Positions 269 through 27,364 of a stretch of DNA of 28,919 nucleotides are shown in pieces. The notes beneath the pieces are model-generated. The model worked only from the letters and a program-made list of their open reading frames with translations. It made no database searches and had not been told where the DNA came from. Position numbers and translations under genes: made by a program. Numbering within the stretch: position 1 is the stretch's first letter; each line of letters starts with the position of its first letter. Source of the stretch: a virus; the IMG/VR virus record IMGVR_UViG_3300037137_000724, positions 1 through 28,919 of that record. One strand, 5' to 3'.

Positions 269-274
269 AGTCTA
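269..274 (-). promoter_or_regulatory. TANNNT -10-like hexamer before the membrane protein gene
   Basis: TAGACT on the minus strand is followed by 6 nt and then GTG at 262. It overlaps the stop codon of the methyltransferase. The spacing would put transcription start on the GTG itself (a leaderless mRNA). No -35 element is visible. Confidence 0.3.
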
Positions 275-853
275 GGTAGCCGGGAAGACGCCGTAGTACG
301 CCTCTCCAACGCAGCCGTGTTCGTCGAGTCGCGCGACGTATCCATGACCGGCGAGCAGACCATCCAGCAGCTCGCTCGTTAGCGTGTGTGGATGCCCTGG
401 GTAGGGCGCAACGTTTACCCACTCGAAGACACGCACAGCCTTCCTAGCGGCTGCCCGCGCGTTCGCGACTACGCGTGCCGGGTCGTCTACGTGCTGAAGG
501 ACGTTGTAGATCCAGGCTTCGTCGAAGCCTTCATCCCCAACATCGCCGTAGTCCTCGGCTCGCGTAGAGATGAGCTGAATCCCGCACTCCGCGTAGCGGG
601 CAGCGATCCACGTCGGGAACGCTCCGGGATCAACAACCACGCTACGCCCACGGCGACGGCACTTAAGCAGGAGCGAGACGGGTCCGCCTCCGATGTCGAG
701 AACAGCCCGGCCGTCGAGGTCGTATTCGGGCGGGTGAGCACCGCCCCACTCGGGTTGCAGACCCATGCGTATCGCGTACACCTGCTGCTTCTCCTCCTCG
801 TGCCAGGTATTCCCACAGTCGCTCCACCAGACGGCCTCATCGAACGAAGACAA
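272..853 (-). CDS. SAM-dependent methyltransferase (class I)
   Basis: 193 residues. The Rossmann-type SAM site is clear: motif I AVLDIGGGPVSLLLK at about residues 50-64, an acidic strand-2 end (VVVDPG) at about 73-78, and a motif IV/V-like stretch (YNVLQHVDDP) at about 115-124. The start is TTG 853, chosen because GGAG lies 5 nt upstream on the minus strand; it overlaps the end of the preceding methyltransferase by 17 nt. It is the last of three modification genes (GT-B glycosyltransferase, methyltransferase, methyltransferase) in a coupled set, so a sugar or small glycan substrate is more plausible than DNA. The substrate is inferred from context only; there is no DNA-methylase motif such as DPPY or PC. 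Confidence 0.72.
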   Translation of the reverse strand: MSSFDEAVWWSDCGNTWHEEEKQQVYAIRMGLQPEWGGAHPPEYDLDGRAVLDIGGGPVSLLLKCRRRGRSVVVDPGAFPTWIAARYAECGIQLISTRAEDYGDVGDEGFDEAWIYNVLQHVDDPARVVANARAAARKAVRVFEWVNVAPYPGHPHTLTSELLDGLLAGHGYVARLDEHGCVGEAYYGVFPAT

Positions 854-1409
854 GACCGCTCCAGTCGAAGTAGCCGTTGGGCGTGAGCTGGCGAGCGCGT
901 CGCGTCGCCGGTCGGTTCAAGCGGAAGCCGTGTTCGCGCATCCGTTCGATCCAGTAGTCGGGCGGCTGGCAGTTGACGTGGTGGTGCCCACCCTGCCCTG
1001 GGAGACCGTGCGTCATCGCGATTATCCTCGCATGCGCGAATGTCGCCAGAAAGTTCTCCTCGTACTCGGCCTCCACGTGCTCCACGAACTCGCAGCACCA
1101 GCAGAGGTCGAACTCGCCGAGTGCATGCGGGTAGGGACCTGTGGAGTAGTCATGCTGCACGATGTCTTCGGCGTCCTGCGCGATCCCGTCAATGCCCAGC
1201 ACCGCGCAGCCGAGGCCTCGAAAGTAGGCGACGGAGTGGCCCTCACCGCAGCCCACATCCACAACGCTGCGCAGGTGGTACTTCGTTACGAGCCAGTGCC
1301 AGAGGTCAGGATAGTAGGAGCCTTGATCTCCTCCGATGAGATAGCCGCCGAGGTGAGGCCGCTCCCTGTCTACGTACATGAAGTCGGGTATCCACTCCTC
1401 GGCCTTCAT
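837..1409 (-). CDS. SAM-dependent methyltransferase (class I)
   Basis: About 190 residues from ATG 1409, where ATGA overlaps the stop of the glycosyltransferase; a longer frame from 1430 is open but less likely. Motif I is SVVDVGCGEGHSVAYFRG at about residues 48-65, followed by LGIDGIAQDAE (strand 2) and the helix CWCCEFVEHVEAEYEEN typical of small class I O-/N-methyltransferases. A His-rich stretch (GQGGHHHVN) and the C-terminal WIERMREHGF complete the family pattern. Junctions on both sides overlap, so it is probably co-translated with the glycosyltransferase and the second methyltransferase. A sugar-modifying role is inferred from neighbours. The two adjacent methyltransferases are clearly different proteins rather than a recent duplication. 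Confidence 0.75.
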   Translation of the reverse strand: MKAEEWIPDFMYVDRERPHLGGYLIGGDQGSYYPDLWHWLVTKYHLRSVVDVGCGEGHSVAYFRGLGCAVLGIDGIAQDAEDIVQHDYSTGPYPHALGEFDLCWCCEFVEHVEAEYEENFLATFAHARIIAMTHGLPGQGGHHHVNCQPPDYWIERMREHGFRLNRPATRRARQLTPNGYFDWSGLVFVR

Positions 1410-2536
1410 GCGTCGTAGCCACGCTCCCACAAGGTATCTAAAGTGTCGAACCAGCGCGAGAACATCGGCCCGACCGCCTCCTGCGAGTAGCGTGCCTTCG
1501 CCGCCTCCCGGATGTCCTTGCGCTTCAACTTCTGTACCTGCTTGAAGGCCTCGGCTCCCTGCTTCGGCGTGCGGAAGCGCGCCCCCACGTCCGGCGTCAC
1601 GATCTCGGTGAAGCTGCCCCAGTCGCTCGCGATCACGGGACTACCTGCCAGCATGGCCTCCACCGCCACGCCGCCGAACGGCTCGATGTAGAGCGTCGGT
1701 ACGATGGTCGCAGCGGCGTTGCGCATCAGCTCGTTGCGCTCCTTGAAGCCGACCGGTCCGACGTGGTGCACGTCGCCCTCGATGCGGATGCCTTGCTGCG
1801 TCACGACCAAGCCCTCCGAGACTTCTCTCGCGCCCGGCCCGGCGACGTACAGCGGTAAGCCCAAGCGCTTCGCTATCTCGGCGGCGACGTGCGGACCCTT
1901 GCGGTTGATGATTCGCCCGATGAACAGGAGGTAGTCGCACGAGGGGTTCCGCGCTACGGAGAACTGACTCGCGTCGAAGAAGTTGGGGATGACCTGGTCG
2001 AACGCGCGCCCGTCTCCGACTCCCTGTATTCCGTAGACGTGGTGCATCCAGGCGTAGGACTCATACGCGTGAAAGGAGCGCGCATCGACGCCGATGTAGC
2101 CGACACCCCACTCGACCGTGATCGGATTGTTCCAGCGTGGCCCGGCGATGGCGTCTGCGATCGGAGACTGCGTGCTCGTCATCAGGCAGAGGAAGTGCCC
2201 GCGCCGATCTTCCGGCATGCGCTCACGCAGCGCGTCGATGGTGCGCGTGGCTGACTCGAACCAGTACGGCTGCGCGGCGTCCCACTCAAACGCCTTCGTG
2301 GTGTCGTAGCCGTTCGGCCCGCCGTAGCCCCAGCGCAGGCGATCGGCCTCGGTCGTGACGACGACGTGCTCGTCCGGGGAGCAGTCGATCTCATCCGGGC
2401 CGTAGAGGATGACATGGCAGCCCTGCGCCTGCATCATCGGCACAAACTTGAGCGCTTTCATTGAGTAAGCGCACGAGGAGTCCTTCTCGGTGAGAGTTGT
2501 GTGGGGGAGGCAACAAACATGGAGCGTGCGGGTCAC
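1406..2536 (-). CDS. Glycosyltransferase, GT-B fold (GT4-like)
   Basis: 376 residues. The C-terminal half has the nucleotide-sugar-binding pattern of GT4 enzymes: LLFIGRIINRKGPHVAAEIA at about residues 205-224, VAGPGAR, the HHVGPVGFKERNELMRNA strand-helix, and the EPFGGVAVEAMLAGSPVIAS segment with the E-x7-E pair at about 283-302. The N-terminal domain carries the acceptor side (HVCCLPHTTLTEKDSSCAYS). GTG 2536 overlaps the upstream stop as GTGA. Expected activity is retaining transfer of a sugar from a nucleotide donor in the host cytoplasm. It sits directly downstream of tail-tip genes and upstream of two methyltransferases. Virion-protein glycosylation is a reasonable guess; modification of a host surface glycan is the alternative. 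Confidence 0.85.
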   Translation of the reverse strand: MTRTLHVCCLPHTTLTEKDSSCAYSMKALKFVPMMQAQGCHVILYGPDEIDCSPDEHVVVTTEADRLRWGYGGPNGYDTTKAFEWDAAQPYWFESATRTIDALRERMPEDRRGHFLCLMTSTQSPIADAIAGPRWNNPITVEWGVGYIGVDARSFHAYESYAWMHHVYGIQGVGDGRAFDQVIPNFFDASQFSVARNPSCDYLLFIGRIINRKGPHVAAEIAKRLGLPLYVAGPGAREVSEGLVVTQQGIRIEGDVHHVGPVGFKERNELMRNAAATIVPTLYIEPFGGVAVEAMLAGSPVIASDWGSFTEIVTPDVGARFRTPKQGAEAFKQVQKLKRKDIREAAKARYSQEAVGPMFSRWFDTLDTLWERGYDA

Positions 2537-3990
2537 GTGTCACTCGGGTTCACGAGCGCACGCGTCGCAACCTTGTGCCGCTGCGCCTCGCGCCAGTTCA
2601 TACCCACCCAGAACTCCGGACAGGTCGGCTCGGCACCTCCGCCGAAGTCATCCAGGCGCGTAAGCGCATCACCCCACACCGAGATCGCCAACCGATTCTG
2701 ACCAGGAATGTTGTTTGGACCGAACGAGGTCTCGTTCCAGGCGGCTATCCACTCCCAGCCCGAGCCACGATTGATCCACGCATGAAGGAAGTTCGCTGGA
2801 CAGGTCGTGCGCTGTATGCCGATGCTCCAGTTGTCCTGCATATCGATCCAGCTGTAGATCGGATTGCCCGCAAAGAAGCCGGTGTTGCCCGTGAAGCCGA
2901 GCACGACAGCATCGCCCGCGATATAGCCGCCGTACTGCGGTTGATTGACTACCGCGTAGCCGCCCATCGTGGCGTCAGCGCCGCAACCCGTCTCGTCGAG
3001 ATGGATGATCGCTTGCCCGGCGACGTTCATCTTCACGAATCCCTCCGCGTAGCCTCCGAAGCTCACGGCGTCGTCCTTCCAGATGGCACCAGCCGCACCG
3101 AAGGCATAGATAGCACTGCGCTGCACCTGGTTGCCGACGAGTGCGACCAGACCGCCGCCGTAGCCCGGTGCGCACTCGGACGGCTCGACCGGCGGCCCCA
3201 TGTACCAGGAGTCGGAGCCGTCGAGCGGGTCCTCGTTAGCCCGATTGAAGTCATCGAGAATCGAGAAGCGCGGGAAGTCGGGAATGTACGTCGCCTCGTA
3301 GATGCCGACCACTAGCGAGTCATAGGCGCGGTCGGCCGTGTTCGAGACGACGGTAATGGTGTCGTTCGCGAGCACGCCGATGCGGAAACCGCCGCGGATG
3401 TGGATGTTAGAGATGTCGCTGCCGCCGGTCGTACCGTCGCCGTCGATTTCGGTGTAGTCGGAGTCCCAGGTGTACGTGTCCGTCTCCGGACCCATGGCTG
3501 AGAAGCCATGCAGGATGAGCACTTCCTGACCATTGAAGGGCACGTTCATCACGGTCGGGTCGCCGCCGCCGCCGCCTGGCCCTCCGAAGGTGCCTGCCAC
3601 GAACGGCCCGTGATTGCGTGCCCACACCTTCGTCGTGTCCATCGAGAACTCCCAGACGCTCATCGCCTTCTCGTCATGATTCGAGTTGCGGTGCGTGACC
3701 GTGATCGTGTCGCCGGTCGTGAGTTGGGCAGTAACGCGACAGAGCGTGATCGCCACGTGCGACTCCCACATCCAGGAGCCAAGTAACGAGTAGACGTTCT
3801 CCTGTGTGTCGTGGACAGCGACGGCCGGATAAACCGAGCCTTCCGGCGTACCGGTGTAGTCCTGATCCCAGGCCGTCCAGATCGCGAGCAGCCGCCCAAC
3901 CGGAACGGTGCGCGAGGGATTGATGCTGAGCGTGCCGCCGGAGGTCTTGGCGTTCGCCGTTCCCAGGCTGCCGATGCTCGTGAAGGACAC
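2533..3990 (-). CDS. Tail-tip / fibre protein with two beta-sandwich regions
   Basis: 485 residues with no enzymatic motif. Residues 1 to about 235 look like a beta-sandwich module (IGSLGTANAKTSGGTLSI at the N-terminus, RAYDSLVVGIYEA at its end), interrupted by a glycine loop (GTFGGPGGGGGDPTV). From about 243, FSILDDFNRANEDPLDGS opens a second module with the DDFNRAN motif seen at the start of concanavalin/LamG-like domains in phage tail proteins. It ends with LTRLDDFGGGAEPTCPEFWV. It starts at GTG 3990, 4 nt after the preceding stop, with no good ribosome-binding site, so coupling is likely. A carbohydrate-binding role at the tail tip is inferred. Confidence 0.6.
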   Translation of the reverse strand: MSFTSIGSLGTANAKTSGGTLSINPSRTVPVGRLLAIWTAWDQDYTGTPEGSVYPAVAVHDTQENVYSLLGSWMWESHVAITLCRVTAQLTTGDTITVTHRNSNHDEKAMSVWEFSMDTTKVWARNHGPFVAGTFGGPGGGGGDPTVMNVPFNGQEVLILHGFSAMGPETDTYTWDSDYTEIDGDGTTGGSDISNIHIRGGFRIGVLANDTITVVSNTADRAYDSLVVGIYEATYIPDFPRFSILDDFNRANEDPLDGSDSWYMGPPVEPSECAPGYGGGLVALVGNQVQRSAIYAFGAAGAIWKDDAVSFGGYAEGFVKMNVAGQAIIHLDETGCGADATMGGYAVVNQPQYGGYIAGDAVVLGFTGNTGFFAGNPIYSWIDMQDNWSIGIQRTTCPANFLHAWINRGSGWEWIAAWNETSFGPNNIPGQNRLAISVWGDALTRLDDFGGGAEPTCPEFWVGMNWREAQRHKVATRALVNPSDT

Positions 3991-3994: not shown

Positions 3995-4249
3995 TCAGTC
4001 GATCACGTAGACCCGCGCTCGGGTGACGGCGGTGACGTTCTGGATGAGTACTTCGACCACGTTCTGCGAGATCCGTGCCTTGCCGCTCGTCGGTGTGACG
4101 AGGACCTCGACCGGCTCCTGGCTCAGCCGTGCCTTGCCGCTCGTCGGTGTGACGAGGACCTCGACCGGCTCCTGGCTGGTACGGGCCTTCGCGTCGGTCG
4201 GCTGGACGAGGACCTCGACCGGCTCTTGCGAGATGCGGTCGTTCGCCAT
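3995..4249 (-). CDS. Small repeat protein of the tail-fibre cluster
   Basis: 84 residues, almost entirely four tandem copies of an 18-residue unit. The unit reads RISQEPVEVLVQPTDAKA, then RTSQEPVEVLVTPTSGKA, RLSQEPVEVLVTPTSGKA and RISQNVVEVLIQ plus a degenerate end. Each has a polar SQEP turn and a beta-strand pattern (VEVLV), so a stacked beta structure is plausible. Similar SQ-VxEVL repeats occur in small phage proteins beside tail fibres, from memory. No enzyme motif, signal peptide or membrane segment is present. ATG 4249 is preceded by a weak AAGGTGG. It lies between two LamG-like tail proteins, so a structural or accessory role is inferred. Confidence 0.6.
   Translation of the reverse strand: MANDRISQEPVEVLVQPTDAKARTSQEPVEVLVTPTSGKARLSQEPVEVLVTPTSGKARISQNVVEVLIQNVTAVTRARVYVID
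4019..4234 (-). repeat. Four tandem 54-bp repeats inside a coding region
   Basis: Units lie at 4019-4072, 4073-4126, 4127-4180 and 4181-4234. The two middle units match exactly over their first 51 bases; the outer units are diverged. The period of 54 nt equals 18 codons, so copy number can change without a frameshift. Confidence 0.85.
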
Positions 4250-4273: not shown

Positions 4274-5272
4274 TCACGCGACAACTTTTACGCCGAACTC
4301 GGCGTTGTTGACGTCAGTGATCGTCCACACGCCGCCGCCCGGCTTCGCCTCGCGGATGTCGGTGAAGTAGGCGTAGGAAGCGCCGAGCGTCTGGTCTGCG
4401 GAGTCCACCTCCGTCCCGGAGAGTCTCGCGATGGACGCGATTTTGCGCGTGCCTGCGTCGGTCTTCTTCGCGTACAGGCACGGCTGGACGGCGTAGACGG
4501 TGCCGGTCGTCGGGGTGAGGTTCCCGAAGGCGTATGTGTCCTTGTCGCCCACCGTGCTCGACTCCACGTAGTCCGTATCGTCGTTCGGTGTCACCTCGTC
4601 CACGAGCAGGTAGTTGTCCGTTGAGTTGCCGTCCGAGCCGGTGAGGTTCGACGTGTTGCCGTTCCCGTTCGGGAACAGGGCCTCCACCCGAATATCCCCA
4701 AGGTAGTCGTTGGTCGGAGCACCTCCTGAGGTGTCAACCACATAGATGTCGTCGATGTCGCCGACCGTAAACTGGGCGCCGTTGCTGAGCACGATCTCAT
4801 TCACGGTGGCATTGGCCCCGTTGCGCGTGTCCTGGCTCGACAGGTTGATGACCGATACGCCGTCGATCTTCAGCTCGACCACGCCCACCGTGTCCGAGAT
4901 TGTCGCTTTGAACTCCAGGTAATACCACTGGTTCAGCGTCAGCGGCTTGATGTACGTCCCAAGCGAGGTGCCTGCCCGCGTGATCGAGAATGTCGTCGTC
5001 GAAACGGTGTAGCGCAGATCGACGTGAGCTGTTCCGGAGTCGCGGAACTGGACGAGGATGGGCGTGTCTACAACAGCCCGGTACTTGAAAGCGAAGCCCA
5101 TGATGATCGTGGCGTAACTCGCAGGCAGGGACTTCAACCTAGAGGTTGTCTCCCCGTTGTAAGCGTTGCCTCCGAACCTGCCCGAAGCCATCGAGACGTT
5201 GCCCGACCAGCCCTTCTCGGGTGCGTCACCGGCAGCCATGTGATCCCAGCCTTCGACAAGCACGACGGTCAT
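4274..5272 (-). CDS. LamG/concanavalin-like tail protein
   Basis: 332 residues. The opening VLVEGWDHMAAGD and the run TSRLKSLPASYATIIMGFAF, later LNQWYYLEFKATISDTVG and VELKIDGVSVINLS, are typical of LamG/concanavalin-like jelly-roll domains in phage tail proteins (about residues 1-185). The second half has GDIDDIYVVDTSGG, FPNGNGNTSNLTGSDG and YVESSTVGDKDTYAFG, seen in a common phage minor tail family; it ends with a beta-rich domain. ATG 5272 follows the upstream stop directly (TAGATG), with AGGAGGG as the ribosome-binding site. A carbohydrate-binding or tail-tip structural role is inferred; no hydrolase residues can be assigned. Confidence 0.7.
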   Translation of the reverse strand: MTVVLVEGWDHMAAGDAPEKGWSGNVSMASGRFGGNAYNGETTSRLKSLPASYATIIMGFAFKYRAVVDTPILVQFRDSGTAHVDLRYTVSTTTFSITRAGTSLGTYIKPLTLNQWYYLEFKATISDTVGVVELKIDGVSVINLSSQDTRNGANATVNEIVLSNGAQFTVGDIDDIYVVDTSGGAPTNDYLGDIRVEALFPNGNGNTSNLTGSDGNSTDNYLLVDEVTPNDDTDYVESSTVGDKDTYAFGNLTPTTGTVYAVQPCLYAKKTDAGTRKIASIARLSGTEVDSADQTLGASYAYFTDIREAKPGGGVWTITDVNNAEFGVKVVA

Positions 5273-7123
5273 CTAGTTGTCCCTCCTTACGGTCAGCGAG
5301 AGCGTAACGCGGGTGATCGTCGCCGCGCTGTCCACGTTGAAGCGAATGATATCGCCCTTCGCCAGTGCAGTTGTCCAGCCGGTCAGCGTCGAGTCCTCGC
5401 TCTTGGTCGCCGAGGAGATCGTGGGCTTCGCGCTCGCGGTGATCGAGTCGCCCACGACCGGCGGATAGTTCGCGTACGTGTCCTTCCAGATGTCGATGAC
5501 GATAGAGCCGGACTGGTCAGCGAACAGCCGGTTCGAGATGATCGTGCAGGCGAAGGGCACCTCGAAGTCGGCTTTGACGCCCGTCGTAATCACCGCCCCG
5601 CCGCCGTCGATGATGAACTCGATGCCTGCCGTCTTTACGAGCAGCGGACGCTGACTCATCACAAAGCCGCTCGTCGTCGTGTCCGCGATGAACACCACCG
5701 CCGTCACCTGCCCCGCCGTGGTCGGCTCGGTCGTCGTGAGTAGACCGGCCGTACCCGCGCTCAGGAAGTAGACGCTGCCCGCCGTCAGCCCCGAGAGGCC
5801 GGTGGCGTAACCGTGACTCAAGACTCTGAAGGTGCTGCTATCTACCACCTGCGTCACGATCCCGACCTCACGAGCGTTCGCCAGCGAATCGGCCTGCGCC
5901 TTGATCCAGGTCGTACCCGAGAGCCGCACCACGTCCTTGACCGTGAAGCCATGCGCAGCCTGTATGACCGTGAGTGAGGAGGTCGCCGCACCGTCGCCCG
6001 CACGGGAGAAGTGCAGCACCACAGGGTCGTTATTCGCGAACGGGCTGGCCGTCGAGGAGTCGATGTAGGTGACGGTGACGTTCCGGTAGCCGGACTCTGA
6101 GCCGACCGCTGAGACTGCGAACAGAATCCAGGCCGAGGGATCATCACGCTTGACGATTTGCATGAGGCCCTTCACTGCATTCGTGCTCGCATCGAGAGCG
6201 TCGATGGCATCCGTCCAGTTGGTCGAGAATGAGTCGAGAAGGTCGAGTCGAACGACCGTGGTGAGGTTCTGATTGGCATCGTTGAAACGCATAAACCCGT
6301 TGCCGGGATCCGCGTCCGTCGTGGTCGTGGAGAACGTGTAGTGCGTCGCCATCGCACCCGAATGCACGCCGGTAGCTCCCGTGGCACCTCCGGGTGACCC
6401 TGCGGGTCCCGTTGCCCCAGTCGCCCCAGTCGCCCCGCCAGCTGATCCCGTGGCTCCTTGCGAGCCTGCTGCCCCCGTAGCCCCTGTCGTACCGGCTCCT
6501 GTCGCGCCGGTGTTGCCCTGGGTGCCAGTGGCTCCCGTATTTCCAGTCGCACCGGCTGGTGTACCGGTCGCACCCTGAGCACCCACCGTCCCAGTCGCGC
6601 CCTGCGGACCGACGCCGCCTTGCGCCCCGGTGGCTCCGGTTGTATTCGTCTGCTGGAAGATCCAAACCTGGCCTTCCAGCGCGTTTCCGACCGGGTAGAT
6701 CACGACGCGGCCGACGACGAACTCGTTGGTTCCGGGATCGAAGAGGTCGGTGAGGAAGCTGATCTCGTGTGCCGGGACGAAGTTCGGCTCAACGGTGATG
6801 GCCGAGGGCAGCGTGTACGCGAGCGCGTCCCAGGTGCCGGGTATCAGGAAGCCCTTGAACTCCAGCGAGCCGTCAGCGTGCCACCGGAACTCGTGCTTGC
6901 CGAGGTCCTCCTGGTCGGGATCGCCGTCGTCGGGCTGCGTCCAGCCGTTTTGTAGTTCGGGCTGCGGGCCGGGACCGACGTCGGCGGGATCGGCGTCAGG
7001 GTCGCCGTTGTTCTTCGGCCTGTTCCAGCGCCCGGCGAGTGGACGGCGCTGGAGGTCACTGCCGCGAAAGTTCGCCTGCACCAGGCGCGTGGTCGCGTTC
7101 TCCTCCCAGATCGGCCTGGTCAT
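5273..7123 (-). CDS. Tail fibre with collagen-like stalk (616 aa)
   Basis: Modules in order: N-terminal tail-attachment region (about 1-158, with [20 protein letters not shown]); a Thr-rich Gly-X-Y stalk (about 160-258, [19 protein letters not shown]); a beta region (about 260-385); a beta module at about 386-492 that recurs in the 1204-residue fibre ([14 protein letters not shown]); and a C-terminal sandwich from about 495 ([20 protein letters not shown]). The stalk has small register breaks such as GTPAGAT and GAGTT. Collagen triplets normally give trimeric coiled stalks; here the trimer would project beta domains from the tail tip. ATG 7123 overlaps the hub stop (ATGA), the usual place for a baseplate or tail fibre gene. 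The specificity is unknown. Confidence 0.8.
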
Positions 7124-15927: not shown

Positions 15928-15933
15928 GCTCGC

Positions 15934-15939
15934 AGTATA
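15934..15939 (-). promoter_or_regulatory. TANNNT -10-like hexamer before the neck gene block
   Basis: TATACT is followed by 6 nt and then GTG 15927, 5 nt after the methyltransferase stop. It would start transcription of the neck genes on the start codon. No -35 element is seen. Confidence 0.35.
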
Positions 15940-15943
15940 CGCC

Positions 15944-18641: not shown

Positions 18642-19445
18642 CTAGTAGACGAAGGACTCATCCGGCGTCCACAGTTCAGGACGCTGCCAGAGGCCGCTAA
18701 GAGAGCGACGCCAGCCCTGCATGAGGACGCCGGGGTCCTGTAGGTTGATCGCGGGATTGCGCGGCACAAAGGCTGCGGCTACCGGCTTCAGCGCGACGAC
18801 GAAGTGCCACTTGAAGGCCGCGGTCGCCTTCGTGTACGTGGTCGCGGCGAAGGTCCCGGCTGCGGCCTTCTCGCCAGTCGCGAGCCCGAGATGGCCGCCG
18901 TTGCCCTCGTTGCGCGCGTTATCGGCGCGCTCGGTGAGATTTGCGAGGTCGGCGTTCGTCCAGCCCGAGACCTCAGCCGTACCGAGCGAGTCGGGCTTGG
19001 CTGAGCCCACAACGACTGCGATGAGGCAGTCGGCGACCGTGGTCGTACCGCCGGTTGCCGAGCCGGTTGTGTCCTCGACCGCCTCGGACGAGGTGACGAT
19101 GATGTCCCAGGGATTGTCCGTTGTAATGCAGCCCGAGAAAGCGAACCTCTGGAGGATGATGTGATTGCCGGGGTCGGCAACAATCGCGTCAGCCTGCCCG
19201 GAGTAGCGACGCCAGAAGAGGGCGCCGCGAGTCGCGATCGTGGCCGTACCGCTAGCGACCGAGATCGGCGAACCAGGAACCTCGACAAAGCCGCCGGTCG
19301 TTGACAGTGAGATCGTCTCATCCATCGACTCGCAGACGAGGAACTCGATGTCGTCGGTTGCAAGCCCGGCCGGAGCGTTGAACGCCTGCAATGCTGCGGT
19401 GTCGCCTTGCGCGGTGCTCGCCGCACGGAATGCCGGGAGTGCCAT
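18642..19445 (-). CDS. Beta-rich virion protein, probably fibre-associated
   Basis: 267 residues. ATG 19445 follows the long collagen gene with a GAGG ribosome-binding site. The sequence is beta-rich without enzymatic motifs: GLATDDIEFLVCESMDETIS, TIATRGALFWRRYSGQADAI, VADCLIAVVVGSAKPDSLG and YTKATAAFKWHFVVALKPV. This layout (a strand ending FLVCES, later AxxxxGWT, and a closing VVALKP strand) matches a beta-sandwich found in many phage and environmental virion proteins; it also resembles the N-terminal half of the 485-residue tail protein at 2533-3990. The C-terminal tail, PNDRxxxL-like, has DPGVLMQGWRRSLSGLWQRP. Surface or fibre function is inferred. Confidence 0.55.
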   Translation of the reverse strand: MALPAFRAASTAQGDTAALQAFNAPAGLATDDIEFLVCESMDETISLSTTGGFVEVPGSPISVASGTATIATRGALFWRRYSGQADAIVADPGNHIILQRFAFSGCITTDNPWDIIVTSSEAVEDTTGSATGGTTTVADCLIAVVVGSAKPDSLGTAEVSGWTNADLANLTERADNARNEGNGGHLGLATGEKAAAGTFAATTYTKATAAFKWHFVVALKPVAAAFVPRNPAINLQDPGVLMQGWRRSLSGLWQRPELWTPDESFVY

Positions 19446-19448
19446 TTC

Positions 19449-22400
19449 TTACAACCTCGTGTACGTGATCATGACGCCGAGCAGACGGGCAGTCGCCGCC
19501 AGCGTGTCGGAGCCAGAGGTCGGATCTCGCGAGACGCGGAACTGTACTAGCTCGGACGCTCCGGCCCCGGCGATCGTGATAGCAGCGGTAGCAGGAGAGA
19601 TCGCCAACTGATTCGCAGTGCCGTTCAGAGCGTCCTGCACGGTTTGCTCTGCTCCCCAGGCAGCGTCGATGGTCTCGAAGTTGCCGTAGGAGATGCCCTG
19701 GCATCCCCAGAGGACGGGGTTGGTAGAGGCGCTGTTGGCCGTCCAGTAGAAGACAGCCGTGACCGTGCCTCCGTTCCAGTCGGAGGGCATCGCGATCGTG
19801 GCCTGCGCCAGCAGCTTCGTCGCGCCGTCGGCGAAGTCGAGCACGTAGAGATCCTGATCGTTGGTACCGAAGTCAACCTTGGCGTTAGCAGCCGCACCGT
19901 TCGTCGTCGAGGGCCACATGCCCGCCGCGGAGAGGAATATCTGCCCGGCGGGCTTGCTCCCAGGTGAGCCGTCGAGGCCGGGAGTACCTTCCGGCCCGGT
20001 TGCTCCCGTCGTGCCCGCTCCGGTCGGCCCCGTCGTTCCCTGGCTGCCTGTATTACCGGTCGCACCTTGCGTTCCCGTAGGCCCAGTTGTGCCCGTGAAG
20101 CCCTTATCACCTTCCAAGCCATCTAGCCCTTGCGGGCCGGTTGCCCCGGTAGCGCTGGTTGCGCCTGTCGGCCCGGTCGTTCCCTGCGCACCGGTGGCAC
20201 CCGTAAAGCCCTTGTCGCCCTCAAGACCATCCAATCCTTGTGGGCCAGTCACACCTTGCGCTCCAGTTGGTCCAGTGGTGCCCTGAGCGCCCGTGGCCCC
20301 GGTGGTGCCTTGCACTCCCGTCGCACCCGTCACTCCCTGCGCACCGTCAAGACCGTCTAAGCCCGAGGGGCCTGTCGTGCCCTGAGCGCCGGTCGGTCCT
20401 GTAGTTCCTTGCGAGCCCGTTGCGCCGGTCGTTCCCTGCGCGCCGGTGGCCCCTGTGAAGCCCTTGTCCCCCTCTAAACCATCAAGGCCCTGCGGTCCAG
20501 TCGTTCCCTGAGATCCCGTCGGCCCCGTTGTTCCTTGGGTGCCAGTTGGGCCGGTTGTGCCCTGGACTCCGGTGGCTCCGCTGACCCCTTGCGTGCCATC
20601 GAGTCCGTCGAGTCCTGCGGAACCGGTTGTACCAGTAGCGCCCTGCGTACCCGTCGGCCCGGTCGTCCCTTGCGTACCAGTTGCCCCGGTGAATCCCTTA
20701 TCGCCCTCTAGGCCATCCAAACCCTGAGGCCCGGTTGCTCCCGTTGTTCCCTGAGTACCCGTCGGTCCAGTCGTTCCTTGGGTGCCAGTTGGACCCGTGG
20801 TTCCTTGTGCTCCCGTAGCGCCGGTGCTGCCCACCGCGCCGTCGATGCCGTCGATGCCAGCAGGTCCAGTCGCACCAGTAGTTCCCTGGGCGCCCGTCGG
20901 CCCAGTAGTGCCCTGAGCGCCGGTGTTGCCCGTAGCGCCCGCCGTTCCTGTGGCTCCGGTGACGCCCAGACCTCCGTCAATCCCATCCAAACCCTGTGGG
21001 CCGGTAGCGCCGGTGCTGCCAGCTGTACCTGTCGGGCCGGTCGTTCCGGTCGTGCCCTGAGCGCCGGTCGCACCCGTGGTTCCCGGTGTTCCGTCGATAC
21101 CGTCGTTCCCTGCGGGGCCGGTGGTGCCCGTGCTCCCCTGCGCGCCCGTGGGTCCGGTTGTCCCTTGTGCTCCTGTCGCGCCTGTCGTTCCCTGCGGGCC
21201 AGTGTTTCCGGTTGTCCCGGCGGCTCCATCAAGGCCGTCCAGGCCCGCCGGGCCTGTCGCGCCGGTTGGCCCAGTCGTTCCTTGTGTACCCGTCGGCCCT
21301 GTCGTGCCCTGGGTTCCTGTGGCTCCCGTCGTTCCCTGCGGCCCAGTCGCTCCGCTGACACCGACCTGTCCGTCCAGACCGTCTAAGCCCTGCGGCCCGG
21401 TATGTCCGGTGGTGCCCTGCGTTCCTGTCGGACCGGTCGTGCCTTGCGAACCCGTCGGCCCGGTCGTGCCTTGCGAACCCGTTGCACCGGTGCTGCCGGT
21501 TGCGCCTGGACTTCCATCCAGGCCGTCCAGACCCACGCCGGTCGGCCCGGTGACACCCGTATTGCCGGTCGTACCTTGTGCTCCAGTCGGCCCTGTCGTT
21601 CCTGCGCCAGTCGCACCCGTGGAACCTGGCCCGCCATCTAGCCCGTCTAGTCCAGCCGGTCCAGTGACTCCCGTAGTCCCAGTCGATCCCTGGGAGCCGG
21701 TCGCGCCCGTCGATCCCTGGGAGCCGGTCGCGCCCGTGCTTCCAAGACCTGTGGCACCTGTAGAGCCTGGCGCGCCGTCCAGCCCATCGAGGCCAACCGG
21801 ACCCGTCGCGCCCGTCGATCCGGGCTGGCCCTCCGAGAGCAGCTCACCACGGAAGTTGAAGAGGTATCCGGAGGTCGCCGCGTTGGCGATGATGATGGGC
21901 TTCGAGACCTCTCCGAAGGTCGGCTCGGTGCTCGTCAGCGCACCGGCGACGCTCGGACTCAGGAAGTAGACCGTTCCGGCTGTGAGACCTGCGAGACCGG
22001 TGATGTAGCCGATGAACTGGATCGTGAAGTTGTTGGCGTCTGCGACCGCCGAGACCACTCCGACTACTTCGGCATTAGCCGCGGTATTCGCTTGAGCCTT
22101 GACATAGGTCGCGCCGCTCAGACGAACGACATCACCGACTGCGAAGCCGTGTCCTACCTGGTTGATGTCTCGGGTCGCACTCCCGCCCGGGCCGGTAGCT
22201 CCGGTGGCTCCCGCGCCGTCCAGCCCGTCTAACCCTTGCGGCCCGGTCGGCCCCGTCGTGCCGGTATTGCCAGTCGTGCCTTGAGTACCTGTCGGCCCTG
22301 TGGTTCCCTGTGCCCCGGTCGGTCCCGTTGTTCCCTGGACACCTGTAGCGCCCGTGATGCCGATCGGACCCGTCGAGCCTGGGCCTCCATCAAGGCCGTC

Positions 22401-23063
22401 GAGGCCCTGTGGGCCGGTCGCGCCTGTTAATCCCTGCAAGCCAGTCGCGCCCGGTGATCCGTCGAGTCCATCTACACCTGCGACTCCGGTAGCTCCGGTC
22501 GGGCCGGTGGTGCCAGCGCCCGTCGCACCCGTAGTGCCGGTGCCCGTAGCGCCGGTGGTGCCCTGCGATCCGGTTGCCCCGGTTGTGCCGACGCCGGTGG
22601 CTCCGGTTGCCCCGGTCGCGCCTTGTGGCCCAGTCGGACCCGTGGTTCCCTGCTGCCCCGTCGGCCCGGGTGAGCCGTCCAGTCCGTCCAGTCCCGCGGG
22701 ACCGGCTGAACCAGTCGCGCCGCTCGGCCCTTGCGGCCCCGTAGCGCCAGTGAAACCCGATCCGGTAGCGCCGGTGGCCCCAGCGCTTCCTGTAGCCCCA
22801 GAGACGCCCTGAGCGCCCGATGCACCCGTAGCGCCCTCGGTACCCGTAGCGCCGGTAGTGCCGACCGACCCCGTCGCCCCGGCGGAGCCGGTCGGACCCG
22901 TTGCGCCATCGGGTGAATCGACGTACTCGTGCATGAAGCTGCCGGGGAAGCCCGGCTCGCCCAGCACTGACGGGCGCGTCTTGAGGAACTTGTCCGCCGC
23001 GATGGCGGCGTCGTCTACATCGAACAGCCGCCGCAGGAACCGGATGACCTTGACGGCTGGCAT
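19449..23063 (-). CDS. Giant collagen-like fibre protein (1204 aa)
   Basis: 1204 residues in five parts: an N-terminal anchor (1-51, [20 protein letters not shown]), collagen block I (about 52-293), a beta module (about 296-408) shared with the 616-residue fibre, collagen block II (about 411-1033), and a C-terminal beta domain (about 1034-1204, with [20 protein letters not shown] and [11 protein letters not shown]). Triplets are dominated by GPT, GTT, GAT and GTQ with Thr in Y; acidic GLDGLDG or [10 protein letters not shown] nodes recur every 36-48 residues. Assuming 0.29 nm per residue, 860 triplet residues give a stalk near 250 nm, longer than a typical siphovirus capsid is wide. The start ATG 23063 lacks a ribosome-binding site and follows a strong hairpin. 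It could be a capsid or a tail fibre; the nearest upstream genes are head and tail tube. Confidence 0.85.
19964..22910 (-). repeat. Collagen-type 9-bp periodic DNA repeats
   Basis: The coding strand repeats GGN-NNN-ACN units for about 2.6 kb, broken by the beta module at roughly 21840-22175. Higher-order units of 108-144 bp start at each GLDGLDG node. The reverse strand reads as open proline/valine-rich frames, which are by-products. Such DNA is prone to recombination and copy-number change. Confidence 0.85.
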
Positions 23064-23149: not shown

Positions 23150-23800
23150 CTAGCTCCCGATGGCACCTGTCCCGAGCACGCCACAAGCCGTGGCGGTGGG
23201 CAGGTCATCGTTGGTGAACCAGCGCGCCCACTCGACTACGTCCTGGCCGTCCGGCGGGCCGTCGCCGTAGGGGCCGCCGCCCCAGAGCGGGTTCGACGCC
23301 GAGACACCGTTCAGCACGGTGCGGCCCACGCCCTCCTCCTGGGTGTTGTCGCCCCACCACCAGCGCGTCCGCGGGAACACCCAGTGGACGAGCTTATAGG
23401 TGGCGTCCGGCGAGTTGCCGACGTAGTGCTTGGCCCAGAACTCGAACCCGACGAAGATCGGATCTTCGTCGCAGTCAAGCGGCGACTGACCGTTGACGCC
23501 GATCGCGAGACCGCCTGCGGTAATCGGCGTATCACCGGTCATCATGGCCTCGATCGCAGGCTCGATCACGTCCTTGCCGAATGTGAAGTCGAACCAGTTG
23601 AAGATCGGTCGCCCTTTGATGTTGACGGTCGCACAACCGCACCCGTCCCGAGCGGTGATGTCGGTGCCCTGGTCGATGTTCGGGTTGAACCCCACCGTCA
23701 CCGGCTTGCGGCTCACGGCGAAGTCGTCGTCCGCGTTTCCGTCGCTGTCGAGGCGCGTCACGCGGATCGCGCAGAGACCATAAGGTGCTCCACAGTTCAT
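23150..23800 (-). CDS. Probable major tail (tube) protein
   Basis: 216 residues; ATG 23800 has a strong ribosome-binding site (GAGAGGAGG), as expected for a highly made protein. The N-terminal pattern, CAIRVTRLDSDGNADDD then VSRKPVTVGFNPNIDQGTDI and ARDGCGCATVN, followed by FNWFDFTFGKDVIEPAIEAM, MTGDTPI, and the CDEDPIFVGFEFW stretch, matches siphovirus tail-tube proteins of actinobacteriophages as I recall them. A late GGGPYGDGPPDGQDVV also fits. The eight cysteines include the motif GCGC. It lies after the capsid genes rather than directly before the chaperones. A head decoration protein is the alternative. Confidence 0.62.
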   Translation of the reverse strand: MNCGAPYGLCAIRVTRLDSDGNADDDFAVSRKPVTVGFNPNIDQGTDITARDGCGCATVNIKGRPIFNWFDFTFGKDVIEPAIEAMMTGDTPITAGGLAIGVNGQSPLDCDEDPIFVGFEFWAKHYVGNSPDATYKLVHWVFPRTRWWWGDNTQEEGVGRTVLNGVSASNPLWGGGPYGDGPPDGQDVVEWARWFTNDDLPTATACGVLGTGAIGS

Positions 23801-23825: not shown

Positions 23826-24680
23826 TCACGGAGTTGCGCTCCTATCGACTCGAACGCCCGCGAGCAGCGCCGTGTCCCAGTAAGCGATGTAGTTCCGCTC
23901 AGCGCGGAACGTCACGTCGTTCGTGTTCGTGTCGATCACTTGAGCCGTCGGCCCAAGGACTTCCACCTCGTCGCGAGTGAGCCGGACTGGCCCCGTCGCC
24001 CAGGCGTAACCCTCATCGGCGGTCAGTGCTGTACCCGGCTGTTGCCCGGATGCCGGGAGGTAGCCATCGCCGATGATGACCGTCGTGCCGCGAGCGGTGT
24101 ACGCCCGCGTCCCGTCGGTCTCGATCAGGTTCCAGGCGGCCATCGCGATGAAGGTGCCGGAGTCCACGTGGATCATGCCGTCGTGCGCCGTGGCGCCGAT
24201 TGCATTCTCCAGTAGGGCTACGGCCTCGCGAGGCCCGATCGCCGCGTTGATCCCGGCCGGGTATGTCGCCAGGCCGGGCTTCGTGAAGTGCGGACGATCG
24301 GAGTCCGTCACCCCGAAGGCCAACTCGCGCTCCACCTGGTAACCCTCCGTTGCAACGAACGCTTGCCTGACGCGACTGCGCGCCCGCTCAGCCCCCGCCT
24401 CGTTGCCCAGACCGATGCCCGAGCAAGAGAAGGGATAGACCACGGTGAACGAGCTGAACTCGGGCTGCGGTGGCTCGCCGCCCACTGCCTTGACCCGCAT
24501 CGTCCCGACGGCGCACGGGTTGTGCGACTCGGGAAGATCGTCGGGATAGGAGTCGATCAGAACTCCTGCCCGCCAGTGACCGTCTCCCTCGGGCACGATC
24601 GTGCCCGGAGTGGTCACCAGCCCGTAGGGCCGGGGAGTCGGAGGAGGGCCGTCGATCCGCAGTGGTGCAAGTGCGCTCAC
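23826..24680 (-). CDS. Conserved capsid-associated virion protein
   Basis: 284 residues from GTG 24680 with a strong ribosome-binding site (GGAGGAGG). It lies between the major capsid and the probable tail-tube genes. The C-terminal half contains DGMIHVDSGTFIAMAAWNLI, ARGTTVIIGDGYLPASGQ, YAWATGPVRLTRDEVEVLG and AERNYIAYWDTALLAGVRVD. This order (probe-like helix, GxxVxxGxGY, WATGPV, TND, AER...WD) is a recurring pattern in phage head proteins next to capsid genes. A minor capsid, portal-vertex or decoration role is possible; no enzymatic site is visible. Confidence 0.5.
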   Translation of the reverse strand: MSALAPLRIDGPPPTPRPYGLVTTPGTIVPEGDGHWRAGVLIDSYPDDLPESHNPCAVGTMRVKAVGGEPPQPEFSSFTVVYPFSCSGIGLGNEAGAERARSRVRQAFVATEGYQVERELAFGVTDSDRPHFTKPGLATYPAGINAAIGPREAVALLENAIGATAHDGMIHVDSGTFIAMAAWNLIETDGTRAYTARGTTVIIGDGYLPASGQQPGTALTADEGYAWATGPVRLTRDEVEVLGPTAQVIDTNTNDVTFRAERNYIAYWDTALLAGVRVDRSATP

Positions 24681-24725: not shown

Positions 24726-26480
24726 TCAGCAGGCTCGGGCAGTGCCCGTCCCTGCCGTCACGCCCGTCGGGCAGAGCGTGAACTGGCCGTAGAAGGCCTC
24801 AGCTGCGACCACGGCCGCGTTCTCGAAGGTCTCGGAGAAGAACTTGACGTCGTTCGTCTCGTTGAGAATCGAGTCGCGGACGAGGCCGATGTTCAGCTCG
24901 CCCTGGTCGATGAACAGGATGCCGCCCTCCGGCCAGAGGAGAACCTCTGCGATGTCCGGGAAGTCGACGATGTCACCATCGGTCTGTGCTCCGATGATCT
25001 GCGCGCCGCCCGTGCGGCTGTCGAGGTAGAAGTCCACGGAGACCTGCGTGCGCCGCTGAATCTCTGCCGCGACTCCAGCTCGGTTGTCCACACCGTTCGG
25101 GAACTGCCGCGCATTCTGATCCGCCACGATGAGGTCAGCGAGCCAGGCCGGTGCGAGCGACCGCAGATTCGCGTCCGCCGAGAGGCGGTGCCGCGACCGG
25201 TAGCCCGCCGCGAGACGCAGCAGGTTGTAGACAAGGCCGTCGAACGCCGAGTACGCCTGCGCCGTCTCCGTCGGAACGATCGTTTGCGGGTCGGCGAAGA
25301 CCGCATCGAGAAGGAGCGAGTCTCGCGTGCGAGCTGCCTGGACGCCCAGGAGATCCTGGTACGCCGCGATCAGCTCCGGGAAGGCGATGCTCGCCAGGTT
25401 CCCGGCCTGAAGGCAGGCCGCGATGATGTCTGCCCGCACCTCGGAGTCCGACGGACACTGGACTACGACGCAGTCCTTGGTGAACGTGCCACCTTCGTCC
25501 TGTGCCTCGGTCAGGTGCGTGATCCCGTCCGTCACGTCCGTGGACGCGATGGAGATGTCCGGGTAGTAGCGCAGGCCGCCGCGCGTGGCGTTGAAGCCAG
25601 CGAAAGCGTCCCGCACCGGGCGCTCGGTGACGCCCATGGCGCCGACGTCGTAGCGGATGGTCGAAGGTGCGCACCAGCCGCCGGAGGCCGTGAGAGCCTG
25701 CGGGCCGCGCACCGCGCGGATCTTCTCGTCGTCCGCCTGGATGGAATCACCGTAGAGCTTGCGCTCCTCCGGGTAATCCCACTGGGCGGACGCCACGACG
25801 ACCTTCTGCACGAAGCCAGGAGGTGTCGAGACCATGCCGCGCAGCGAGGTCATCAACGCATGGGCCAGACCTTCACGGTCAAGCTTCTCGCCCTGCGGGA
25901 TGCCCTCGATACCCGCCGAAGCGACGAGGGACACGCCCTCCTCGATCTCGATGGGCTGATGCTTGCGAGGAACTGCGGGCGGCCGATGCCGGAAGGGCTG
26001 GGCCGGAGCAGCAGCAGCGACGACGGCATCAGGTTCAACCGCTAGCTCGGAAGCGCCCTCATGCGAAACCTCGCTTGCAACTTCAGCCGCCGCTTCTGCG
26101 TTCTCTGGCTCGGATGGCTCCGCAGGCTCGGGGTCTGGTTCGCTCGGCTCCGGCTCGGACGGTTCGTCCTCACGCGGCTCCGCAACGGCTTCGGCGACGA
26201 CGCCTGCGTCGGCTGCGATCTCGGCCATGTCGGCCGCGAATCGCTCGCGCTCCTCGGTGCGCTCGCTGAGCGCGACCTTGAGCGCCTTCAGCGTCTCCGC
26301 TCCGGCCTGCGCGAGCGTCTTGCGCTCGTTCAGGTCGGGTGGGTTCTCTACACCTTCAAACGCGGCCCCGGAGGCGATGGCCCCGAAGGCGGCGTTGTAC
26401 TGGTCGATGAGCGAGGAGATGTCCTCGTCGGACATCCCCGCGATCTGCTCTAGATCGACCACGGGAAACAGCGGTTCCAT
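24726..26480 (-). CDS. Major capsid protein (HK97 fold) with N-terminal scaffold-like region
   Basis: 584 residues; ATG 26480 has GGAAGGA 7 nt upstream. Residues 1-100 are helical and acidic (AGMSDEDISSLIDQYNAAFG, LSERTEERERFAADMAEIAA). Residues 101-128 are a Glu/Pro/Ser repeat (EPSEPEPSEPDPEPAEPSEP), 129-160 Ala-rich, and 161-174 basic (FRHRPPAVPRKHQP). The capsid domain follows: LTASGGWCAPSTIRYDV at about 268-284, GGLRYYPDISIASTDVTDGI, EGGTFTKDCVVVQCPSDSEV, and a late GGAQIIGAQTDG and VLLWPEGGILFIDQGELNIG. WCAPS and the -INRGELDLG-like end are typical of actinobacteriophage capsids. The first 190 or so residues probably act as a delta/scaffold domain removed by the protease encoded upstream; no separate scaffold gene is present. 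Confidence 0.9.
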   Translation of the reverse strand: MEPLFPVVDLEQIAGMSDEDISSLIDQYNAAFGAIASGAAFEGVENPPDLNERKTLAQAGAETLKALKVALSERTEERERFAADMAEIAADAGVVAEAVAEPREDEPSEPEPSEPDPEPAEPSEPENAEAAAEVASEVSHEGASELAVEPDAVVAAAAPAQPFRHRPPAVPRKHQPIEIEEGVSLVASAGIEGIPQGEKLDREGLAHALMTSLRGMVSTPPGFVQKVVVASAQWDYPEERKLYGDSIQADDEKIRAVRGPQALTASGGWCAPSTIRYDVGAMGVTERPVRDAFAGFNATRGGLRYYPDISIASTDVTDGITHLTEAQDEGGTFTKDCVVVQCPSDSEVRADIIAACLQAGNLASIAFPELIAAYQDLLGVQAARTRDSLLLDAVFADPQTIVPTETAQAYSAFDGLVYNLLRLAAGYRSRHRLSADANLRSLAPAWLADLIVADQNARQFPNGVDNRAGVAAEIQRRTQVSVDFYLDSRTGGAQIIGAQTDGDIVDFPDIAEVLLWPEGGILFIDQGELNIGLVRDSILNETNDVKFFSETFENAAVVAAEAFYGQFTLCPTGVTAGTGTARAC

Positions 26481-26580: not shown

Positions 26581-26610
26581 AGTCTAGGCGAAAGAGCAGA
26601 CGGAGCGCAA
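26581..26610 (-). promoter_or_regulatory. Candidate promoter for the major capsid gene
   Basis: On the minus strand TTGCGC (26605-26610), an 18-nt spacer and TAGACT (26581-26586) resemble sigma70-type -35/-10 elements; the start would be near 26574, giving a leader of about 95 nt. It lies between the tRNA gene and the capsid gene, the largest non-coding stretch here. The -35 match is weak. Confidence 0.35.
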
Positions 26611-26616
26611 GTGCAA

Positions 26617-26687
26617 TAGCGCGGCCGCGATTCGAACGCGAGATTCCGGCGTATGAGACCGGCGTGATGCCATTTCACTACCGCGCG
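26617..26687 (-). tRNA. tRNA-Met (CAU anticodon)
   Basis: 71 nt on the minus strand that folds as a cloverleaf. Acceptor CGCGCGG pairs with CCGCGCT (six of seven pairs; C1 and U72 mismatch), followed by A73. U8-A9; D stem GTGA/TCAC with GG in the loop; anticodon stem CCGGT/GCCGG with loop CTCATAC (U33, CAU, A37); 4-nt variable loop; T stem TCGCG/CGCGG with loop TTCGAAT. CCA is not encoded. A C1 mismatch recalls bacterial initiators (C1-A72), but the anticodon stem lacks three G-C pairs and position 11-24 is U-A, so it is an elongator or a CAU tRNA-Ile2. It starts 11 nt after the glycosyltransferase stop. Confidence 0.85.
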
Positions 26688-26698
26688 GGCGTCGAACC

Positions 26699-27364
26699 CT
26701 AATCGGCGGTGAAGACGGCTGCTCGCCGCGCCGGGTTGCGCCCTTGGTAGCTGCGCTGCTTGACCAGACTCGGCATGAGGTCGGGATGCTCGACGAGACA
26801 CGGAACCGTGGCCCAGACGGCCAGCTTGTGCTGACGAACGAAGCGCCCCACCACCGGATCGTCCCCCAGCGTGCTCATGCGCCTGCGCGCGCGCTCGGCC
26901 ACGTGCTCCTCAGCAAACGGTACGAAGGCTTCAGCCAGCTTGCGCGGCCAGGCGAGCGCGACGGTCGGCACCCAGTTCGCACTGGGCGGAAGTTGCACCC
27001 AGCGGTCTCCGCGCTTGGCTGCCTCCCGTACCCAGCGTCCGTGCAGTCCCATGCCTGGAACGAAGAACGCGACGAGCGTGTCCGGGCGCTCGCGCAGCGC
27101 GTGGTGTGCCCGAGAGTCGAAGTCGCGGACTAGCTTGACGTCGTCCTGGAGCACGAGCCGGTGGCTGACGCCTGGCGGCGTGCGTCGCAGGCACTCGATA
27201 TAGGTGCGGATCGCTGACGGCTTGCCGTTCGGGTCCGGGTCTGTGACGACCTCATAACGCGCCAGCTCTGGCGGTAATACCCGCGAGGGGTGGTGCTGGA
27301 TGACAGTGGAGAGGAGCAAGCCGGGCGGCGGGGGAGAGAGGGCCTTGTGAGCCGTCAGGGTCAC
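26699..27364 (-). CDS. Small glycosyltransferase, GT-A-like (GT25-type pattern)
   Basis: 221 residues from GTG 27364 with no clear ribosome-binding site. The sequence carries STVIQHHPSRVLPPELARYE, then DPNGKPSAIRTYIECLRRTP, and HRLVLQDDVKLVRDF at about residues 69-83, where QDD is the metal/nucleotide-binding DxD-type site after an apolar strand. The C-terminal STLGDDPVVGRFVRQHKLAV and WATVPCLVEHPDLMPSLV complete a pattern seen in short phage glycosyltransferases of the GT25/LPS-type group. Sandwiched between the protease and capsid genes, it may glycosylate the capsid or another virion protein; a host surface target is the alternative. Confidence 0.7.
   Translation of the reverse strand: MTLTAHKALSPPPPGLLLSTVIQHHPSRVLPPELARYEVVTDPDPNGKPSAIRTYIECLRRTPPGVSHRLVLQDDVKLVRDFDSRAHHALRERPDTLVAFFVPGMGLHGRWVREAAKRGDRWVQLPPSANWVPTVALAWPRKLAEAFVPFAEEHVAERARRRMSTLGDDPVVGRFVRQHKLAVWATVPCLVEHPDLMPSLVKQRSYQGRNPARRAAVFTAD

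Follow-up and report, generated by a model that had tools for sequence, protein, structure and literature searches.

Glycosyltransferase and methyltransferase genes among the capsid and collagen-like fibre genes of an uncultured phage: a candidate virion glycosylation system

The enzyme genes of the window

The IMG/VR virus record IMGVR_UViG_3300037137_000724 holds 28,919 bases with a G+C content of 65.6%. It is a 28.9-kb fragment of a virus, an uncultured phage, and the whole of it is called the window here. An initial annotation, made from the sequence alone, described three glycosyltransferases (GTs) and three methyltransferases (MTs) interleaved with three collagen-like proteins rich in threonine (Thr), and proposed that the phage builds O-methylated glycans on its own fibres or capsid. 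The six enzyme frames and the three collagen frames were found where that annotation had placed them, all on the minus strand. Their gene content, homology, gene order and selection, described below, suggest that the six enzymes are probably part of a phage-encoded virion glycosylation system. The enzymes and the proteins on which they might act are as follows; collagen triplets are written GXY, and SAM stands for S-adenosylmethionine.

26699-27364, minus strand: GT-A glycosyltransferase of the Che8 gp110 family (phrog_854), between the protease/MuF and capsid genes
24726-26480, minus strand: major capsid protein (phrog_777)
23150-23800, minus strand: major tail protein (phrog_792)
19449-23063, minus strand: large Thr-rich collagen-like protein, 274 GXY triplets
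17604-18623, minus strand: collagen-like tail fibre protein with a glycine-rich C-terminal domain (PF01391, PF21722)
16878-17573, minus strand: putative GT-A glycosyltransferase (phrog_1574, phrog_34859), after the collagen gene 17604-18623
16504-16881, minus strand: small conserved protein with a serine/threonine (Ser/Thr) patch, directly after the GT-A gene 16878-17573
15944-16507, minus strand: MycE-like SAM methyltransferase (PDB 3ssm, 8ia9; phrog_21658)
5273-7123, minus strand: collagen-like tail fibre protein, Thr-rich GXY
1406-2536, minus strand: GT4 (GT-B) glycosyltransferase (PF00534, PF13692, phrog_3408)
837-1409, minus strand: class I SAM methyltransferase (PF08241 above cut-off), ATG start
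272-853, minus strand: class I SAM methyltransferase (PF08241 above cut-off; phrog_3603)

The GT encoded at 26699-27364 matched phrog_854 (E 7e-12, 46.5 bits), the family that gp110 of mycobacteriophage Che8 matches with 333 bits. Alignment of the family of the window enzyme with gp110 and McProf gp45 by hhalign gave a probability of 80% (E 1.5e-5, 131 columns). An AlphaFold model (pLDDT 76.5) matched GT-A enzymes in both Foldseek and VIA. Mimivirus R655 and human COLGALT1 were the top Foldseek matches (E 3e-5 for COLGALT1). In VIA, COLGALT1 scored Z 13.2 (rmsd 5.2, 173 aligned), with a beta-1,4-galactosyltransferase within 1 Z of it and many other GT-A enzymes at Z 11-12. The earlier description of this enzyme as GT25-type thus holds for the fold, which is COLGALT1-like, but not for the family, since no Pfam family was matched at E <= 0.1; a sequence search of the PDB gave no credible match. 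The acidic metal-site motif Q73 D74 D75 is invariant in the five aligned sequences of the family. In the window, as in all seven relatives that were read there (G001, G002, G003, G084, G086, G087 and G088), the gene sits between those for protease/MuF and capsid, with small extra genes between in some, and identity to the window falls to 28-33% in the four most distant (G084, G086, G087 and G088). It is present in all nine records of this actinophage group, of which G084 and G085 are near-identical, and was absent from the 12 other GT4-bearing records, several of which are short.

The GT encoded at 1406-2536 matched PF00534 and PF13692 above their cut-offs, phrog_3408 at E 3e-51, and glycosyltransferases in the PDB. 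Its E-x7-E motif is kept in 16 homologues, E285 being nearly invariant and E293 invariant. Two MT genes follow. A GTG at 1430 is also open as a start for MT 837-1409.

The MT encoded at 15944-16507 matched phrog_21658 (E 5e-23), PDB entry 3ssm (E 3e-17), and 8ia9, a demethylmacrocin O-methyltransferase (E 5e-13); PF13578 fell just under its cut-off. Entry 3ssm is presumably MycE, an enzyme that methylates a macrolide sugar. With 187 amino acids the window protein is not of full MycE length, and the aligned part covers residues 206-335 of 419. By homology it is likely to be a sugar O-methyltransferase. The TylF/MycE likeness in the initial annotation is borne out for this MT and not for the other two, MT 272-853 and MT 837-1409, the profiles of which gave weak matches only in the PDB search.

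The putative GT encoded at 16878-17573 is the weakest supported of the six enzymes. It matched phrog_1574, a family of unknown function, at E 2e-13, and phrog_34859, annotated as glycosyltransferase, at E 3e-5; PF00535 remained below cut-off (E 0.002), and nothing in the PDB matched its profile. A DND motif is invariant in all four aligned sequences. A peptide scan confirmed no relative, and relatives nonetheless turned up in loci L002, L009, L010 and L011. The small protein encoded next to it, at 16504-16881, has no PHROG match. It is a possible acceptor of GT-A glycosylation because its gene comes next after the GT-A gene in all four loci that have it (the window, G002, L009 and L011), because it is more conserved than the GT (82% as against 66% identity to G002), and because it carries the Ser/Thr patch TSITSTAAYQTSTAATT. 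Equally Ser/Thr-rich patches occur in several other structural proteins of the window. No homologue of either gene was found in G003.

The coupling of the enzyme genes to structural genes, as claimed in the initial annotation, is physical. Four-base overlaps occur at each junction of the run formed by 2533-3990, the GT4 gene and MT 837-1409 and of the run formed by GT 16878-17573, 16504-16881 and MT 15944-16507, and MT 837-1409 overlaps MT 272-853 by 17 bases. Pairwise ratios of nonsynonymous to synonymous substitution rates (dN/dS) against relatives were 0.16-0.37 for the six enzyme genes and 0.23 for the capsid gene, estimates that are rough where dS exceeds 1. All six enzyme genes are under purifying selection.

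Relatives and the remaining genes

The host is probably an actinobacterium, since matches to the capsid protein, found in 774 phage records, come mostly from phages of Mycobacterium, Gordonia and Microbacterium. Genes in the loci of relatives were called by codon score, with a caller trained on the genes of the window. G003 (56,589 bases) is probably a complete circular assembly because it has identical 127-base ends; G002 has 64,173 bases. Between the terminase and portal genes of both there is a GT-like gene, followed by genes for a PIG-L-like deacetylase, an MT, an FkbM-like MT, a putative GT and two GT2-type proteins (L034:4784-6506, L034:7062-7499 and L005:218-3003; 27810-35405 in G002). 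This second block is likely to comprise three GTs and a further putative one, two MTs and the deacetylase. In the copy tested, from G003 or G002, the first GT matched phrog_14945 at E 9e-6, and PIG-L and FkbM came just under the Pfam cut-offs. The second GT of the block, GTb in G003, is called putative because it has only a motif, with no match in the libraries. All six window enzymes are supported as GTs or MTs, GT 16878-17573 weakly. The suite of three and three does not cover the whole virus, since the window holds only part of it and G002 and G003 carry a second block in a stretch that lies outside.

The genes that sit at two places in the window, with the addition of an FkbM-like one, form one cluster at L009:3290-10016: GT-A 16878, the 16504 protein, an FkbM-like MT, MT 15944, the 15637 protein, the GT4 and MT 272. 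Three small extra frames are included and the head-tail adaptor gene comes after; MT 837 is absent from the cluster. Besides the FkbM-like MT, the additions include a weak GT2-like frame and an MT-like frame without a Pfam match.

The other features of the window are listed in the order of transcription.

27388-28917, minus strand: protease/MuF end, first in transcription order
26618-26686: tRNA-Met (CAT), between the phrog_854 GT and capsid genes
23826-24680, minus strand: phrog_779 gene, after the capsid gene
18642-19445, minus strand: unnamed gene, between the collagen genes 19449-23063 and 17604-18623
15637-15981, minus strand: unnamed gene, between MT 15944-16507 and the head-tail adaptor
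14449-15594, minus strand: head-tail adaptor (phrog_783), then neck and tail-assembly genes
8909-11953, minus strand: tape measure, further tail genes after it
4274-5272, minus strand: unnamed gene, after the collagen gene 5273-7123
3995-4249, minus strand: repeat protein (phrog_13560)
2533-3990, minus strand: presumed minor tail protein, no family match, weak relative in L014

In the middle of the window the collagen gene 17604-18623 is followed by GT 16878-17573, 16504-16881, MT 15944-16507, 15637-15981 and the head-tail adaptor. At the distal end the order is collagen 5273-7123, 4274-5272, 3995-4249, 2533-3990, GT4, MT 837-1409 and MT 272-853. The protein encoded at 3995-4249 has 84 amino acids, with about four repeats resembling SQEPVEVLVTPTSGKAR. 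At 12673-13331, where tail assembly chaperones are expected, two overlapping frames are offset by two bases and there is one CCCTTTC heptamer near 13014; a programmed frameshift is probable.

The GT4 family and collagen-like proteins

Threonine in the Y position of many triplets, as noted in the initial annotation, was confirmed. Its share of Y positions is 45% in the protein encoded at 5273-7123, 29% in 17604-18623 and 51% in 19449-23063, while the Thr content of the remaining window proteins is 6.7%. In having GXY repeats with frequent Thr, the window collagens resemble BclA-type collagen.

The GT4 family to which the window enzyme belongs is found near such collagens. In 13 of 16 loci with this family there is a collagen gene in which Thr takes 35% or more of the Y positions, at a median distance of 970 bases. 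Thr-rich collagen was found in none of 120 random viral loci and in none of seven matched actinophage structural modules. The 16 loci are those left after close relatives, judged by eye, were dropped (L010, L021, L022 and L025); the cyanophage locus L008, which holds collagen, was also dropped, and L121, L123, L136 and L152, having been found through collagen, were left out. Keeping L022 instead of L024 would give 12 of 16, because L022 is shorter and does not reach the Thr-rich frame. The loci without such a frame are L009 and L033, the whole records of which (G084 and G002) hold collagen, and L023, a 5-kb fragment. Collagen accompanies the GT4 in four of the six loci from the actinophage group and in nine of the ten others. 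The random loci were shorter (mean about 8 kb vs. 15 kb) and unmatched for gene region; among loci of at least 8 kb, Thr-rich collagen was present in 13 of 15 with the GT4 and in 0 of 53 random ones. The seven modules were matched for gene region, but their number is small and their phages have related capsids; one contains a short run of 14 collagen triplets that is poor in Thr.

The converse does not hold. A PF13692 GT (E <= 0.001) was as frequent with Thr-rich collagen (9 of 48 records) as with Thr-poor collagen (6 of 32; Fisher p = 1); above the cut-off the counts were 8 of 48 and 5 of 32, and within 10 kb of the collagen stretch 6 of 48 and 4 of 32. The records tested had at least 23.6 kb and were hand-chosen, 48 from at least 103 Thr-rich and 32 from at least 57 Thr-poor loci; 34 loci of middling Thr content, and 30 of at least 224 pattern loci without a collagen frame, were set aside. 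The scans for collagen patterns are samples: among the matches listed, 4 of the 120 loci with the Thr pattern and 1 of the 120 stretches with the Gln pattern (Gln, glutamine) matched the GT4-family profile, L136 being common to both. Thr content was rejected as a predictor of the GT4, since 39 of the 48 Thr-rich records lack a PF13692 GT; as Thr-poor records have one equally often, Thr content alone is no sign of glycosylation. The association is one-directional: members of this GT4 family tend to occur with Thr-rich collagen, but such collagen can do without them. A frame at L246:1-2628 has an FkbM-like MT domain and lies near phage collagen genes in which most Y positions are Gln.

Methyltransferases accompany the GT4 as well. 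MT 272 and the GT4 occur together in the window, where MT 837 lies between them, in G003, L022, L024 and L026, and in cyanophage ACG-2014f. At L136:7728-9341 the GT4 and MT 837 form one open frame of 538 amino acids, with Thr-rich collagen genes on both sides. The company of GT4 and methyltransferases in this GT4-METHYLTRANSFERASE module recurs across unrelated phages. Cyanophage ACG-2014f, a T4-like phage, has an MT 272 homologue with 44% identity, a GT4 with 33%, and a collagen-like gene in which Thr occupies 45% of Y positions. It differs in an additional gene annotated PiuC, presumably of the iron/2-oxoglutarate hydroxylase type. At L008:8184-13660 of this phage the collagen gene, a hypothetical gene, the MT, the GT4 and the PiuC gene stand in a row.

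A collagen-like surface protein with a GT is also known from bacterial spores, here likened by description. Open-licence articles are cited by PMC number. In Clostridioides difficile the spore protein BclA3 has a dedicated GT, SgtA (PMC7157674), and BclA of Bacillus bears an O-methylated sugar (PMC6222408). The setting there is a spore surface rather than a virion. No report of glycosylated phage collagen was found in the open-licence PMC literature, among the matches listed.

Precedents and probable targets

Virion glycosylation by Che8 gp108-gp110 was reportedly described by Freeman and colleagues in 2023. Such glycosylation by phage-encoded enzymes is a recent finding, reported for a few actinophages. 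One paper (PMC12363180), citing Freeman et al. (2023), describes Che8 gp110 and Corndog gp38 as indispensable for glycosylation of the capsid; according to another (PMC12619734), glycans were seen on capsid and tail-tube subunits, at their C-terminal ends. Che8 shares with the window a phrog_854 GT and a GT with an O-methyltransferase, gp108 being a fusion of a GT2 domain and a TylF-type MT domain, and it is likewise an actinophage. The window differs in adding the GT4 with two MTs, the MycE-like MT and the collagen fibres, and in having its enzyme genes among capsid and fibre genes; gp108 and gp109 gave no clear match to the profiles of the enzymes of the window and its relatives. The MycE-like family (phrog_21658) is found in McProf and similar Mycobacteroides prophages, and in McProf it adjoins a phrog_854 GT: gp43 (GT2-like), gp44 (phrog_21658) and gp45 (phrog_854) are consecutive. 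No collagen was seen in the 18.6 kb read of McProf. The Gordonia phages GMA2 and Phendrix have a related capsid protein and phrog_854 or phrog_854-like GTs inside the structural module (GMA2 Orf21, phrog_6608; Orf22, phrog_1721; Orf23, phrog_854-like by the profile built here, at E 4e-5; Phendrix gp79, phrog_8858; gp80, phrog_854), with an MT in GMA2. Unlike those of the window, these genes lie shortly before the major tail protein gene and have Che8-type partners, and the 35-37 kb read hold no Thr-rich collagen. In six further phages, cultured or from lakes (DSL-LC01, Atuin, JKSyngboy, Mischief19, Pumpernickel, and MaryV, which alone is of another kind), the phrog_854-type profile had no match in the part of the capsid region that was read. 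In cluster O phages three GTs come after an O-methyltransferase (PMC11600133). Given Che8, McProf, GMA2, Phendrix and cluster O, virion glycosylation with MT partners in actinophages is of an already known kind. The new part is the collagen-linked GT4/MT module.

Three things support glycosylation of the phage's own virion: the homology to Che8 gp110, the constant position of that gene between the protease and capsid genes, and the presence of Che8-type genes inside the structural modules of cultured phages whose capsid protein is related. Methylation of the glycan is plausible because one MT is MycE-like and because MT genes or domains accompany the GTs of McProf, Che8, GMA2 and the cluster O phages. 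What follows is our inference on the proteins that receive the glycans, on the linkage, on the sugars and their methylation, and on what the phage gains. The enzymes would be made together with the adjoining virion proteins, several by coupled translation at the 4-base overlaps. The cytoplasmic GTs would use host nucleotide sugars and would build O-linked glycans on Ser and Thr of new virion proteins: capsid, tail tube, fibres or the small protein. Four phage records were searched, fragments among them, and yielded neither a PF01370 epimerase gene nor a PF13640 oxygenase gene. The SAM methyltransferases would then cap or modify the sugars. The phrog_854 GT, encoded before the capsid gene, would most likely act on the capsid and/or tail-tube protein, by analogy with Che8 gp110; the capsid protein 24726-26480 is a likely acceptor and the major tail protein 23150-23800 a possible one. 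Tail fibres or the 16504-16881 protein would most likely be the targets of the enzymes of the GT4-MT-MT operon, which comes after the distal tail genes, and of the GT-A/MycE-like MT set, which comes after a collagen fibre gene. Collagen Thr as acceptor, however, is put forward tentatively and with some doubt. Equally speculative is a fuller version, in which the phrog_3408 GT4 with one or two MTs is a mobile module for O-glycosylation and capping of Thr-rich collagen-like virion fibres in unrelated tailed phages (actinophages, a cyanophage and others), beside a separate capsid-directed GT, with GT-A 16878 having its own acceptor in 16504-16881. The phage might gain receptor mimicry, protection from proteases, or stiffness of its collagen fibres.

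Several points weigh against virion glycosylation as set out here. The match of GT 26699-27364 to phrog_854 is remote and covers residues 66-218 only, and the structure model of GT 16878-17573 is poor (pLDDT 34). The only enzyme with a characterised relative is the gp110-type one, and the reported target of that relative is capsid and tail-tube protein, not a fibre; this bears on the fibre part of the reading, as do the counts of 9 of 48 and 6 of 32, which leave the Thr-collagen link of the initial proposal weaker than virion glycosylation itself, which is supported, or methylation, which is plausible. No capsid gene is listed in the 15 kb read around the Che8 GT genes, so adjacency to a capsid gene does not characterise the gp110 family. 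In McProf, gp43-45 form one operon near replication and terminase genes. Because the window and G001 are incomplete, as G002 may be, the absence of other pathways from them is not final. A Tet/JBP oxygenase (PF12851) was found in none of the four records, but no control genome was positive either.

If the enzymes altered host cell-surface glycans instead, in the style of serotype conversion, adsorption of other phages would be blocked. A host-surface role has been proposed for the GTs of actinophages E7 and F5 (PMC10202952), and GT 1406-2536 is broadly related to envelope-building enzymes such as PimA. We consider this unlikely: one of the enzymes is in the virion-modifying gp110 family, five of the six genes overlap an adjoining gene, in runs that include known or presumed genes for virion proteins, which suggests co-production, and a GtrA-type gene (PF04138) was found in none of the four phage records, fragments among them, although 7 of 14 control genomes were positive. 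Hypermodification of phage DNA against host nucleases is very improbable. DNA-modifying GTs have been described in phages (cited in PMC12619734), and McProf gp43 weakly matched TAGT and a DNA-glucosyltransferase PHROG, but the window genes sit in a structural module, the only MT for which a close solved structure exists is similar to sugar O-methyltransferases, and no PF00303 gene, for hydroxymethyl-base synthesis, was seen in the same four records, some of them fragments.

There is also a small chance that the jobs are unrelated, with the phrog_854 GT modifying the capsid and the other GT and MT genes being passengers of variable fibre regions. The modules do come and go separately, G003 being without the GT-A, 16504 and MT 15944, and G002 without MT 15944 and MT 272, and fibre regions have been reported as variable islands in freshwater actinophages (PMC10202952). 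Against this stand the purifying selection on all six enzymes, the company of GT4 and MT across unrelated phages, and the single frame that GT4 and MT 837 share in one of them.

Virion glycosylation, the explanation we favour, would extend the gp110 enzyme family to an uncultured group in which its gene has a conserved place before the capsid gene, and would add likely sugar-methylating enzymes to what is known of the process. It also draws attention to a GT4/MT module that accompanies collagen-like fibres in phages unrelated to one another. The result is a concrete list of glycan-building phage enzymes and candidate acceptors, one that bears on the stability of phage collagen without hydroxyproline. 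If the reading of a mobile module is true, glycosylated Thr would stabilise phage collagen in place of hydroxyproline.

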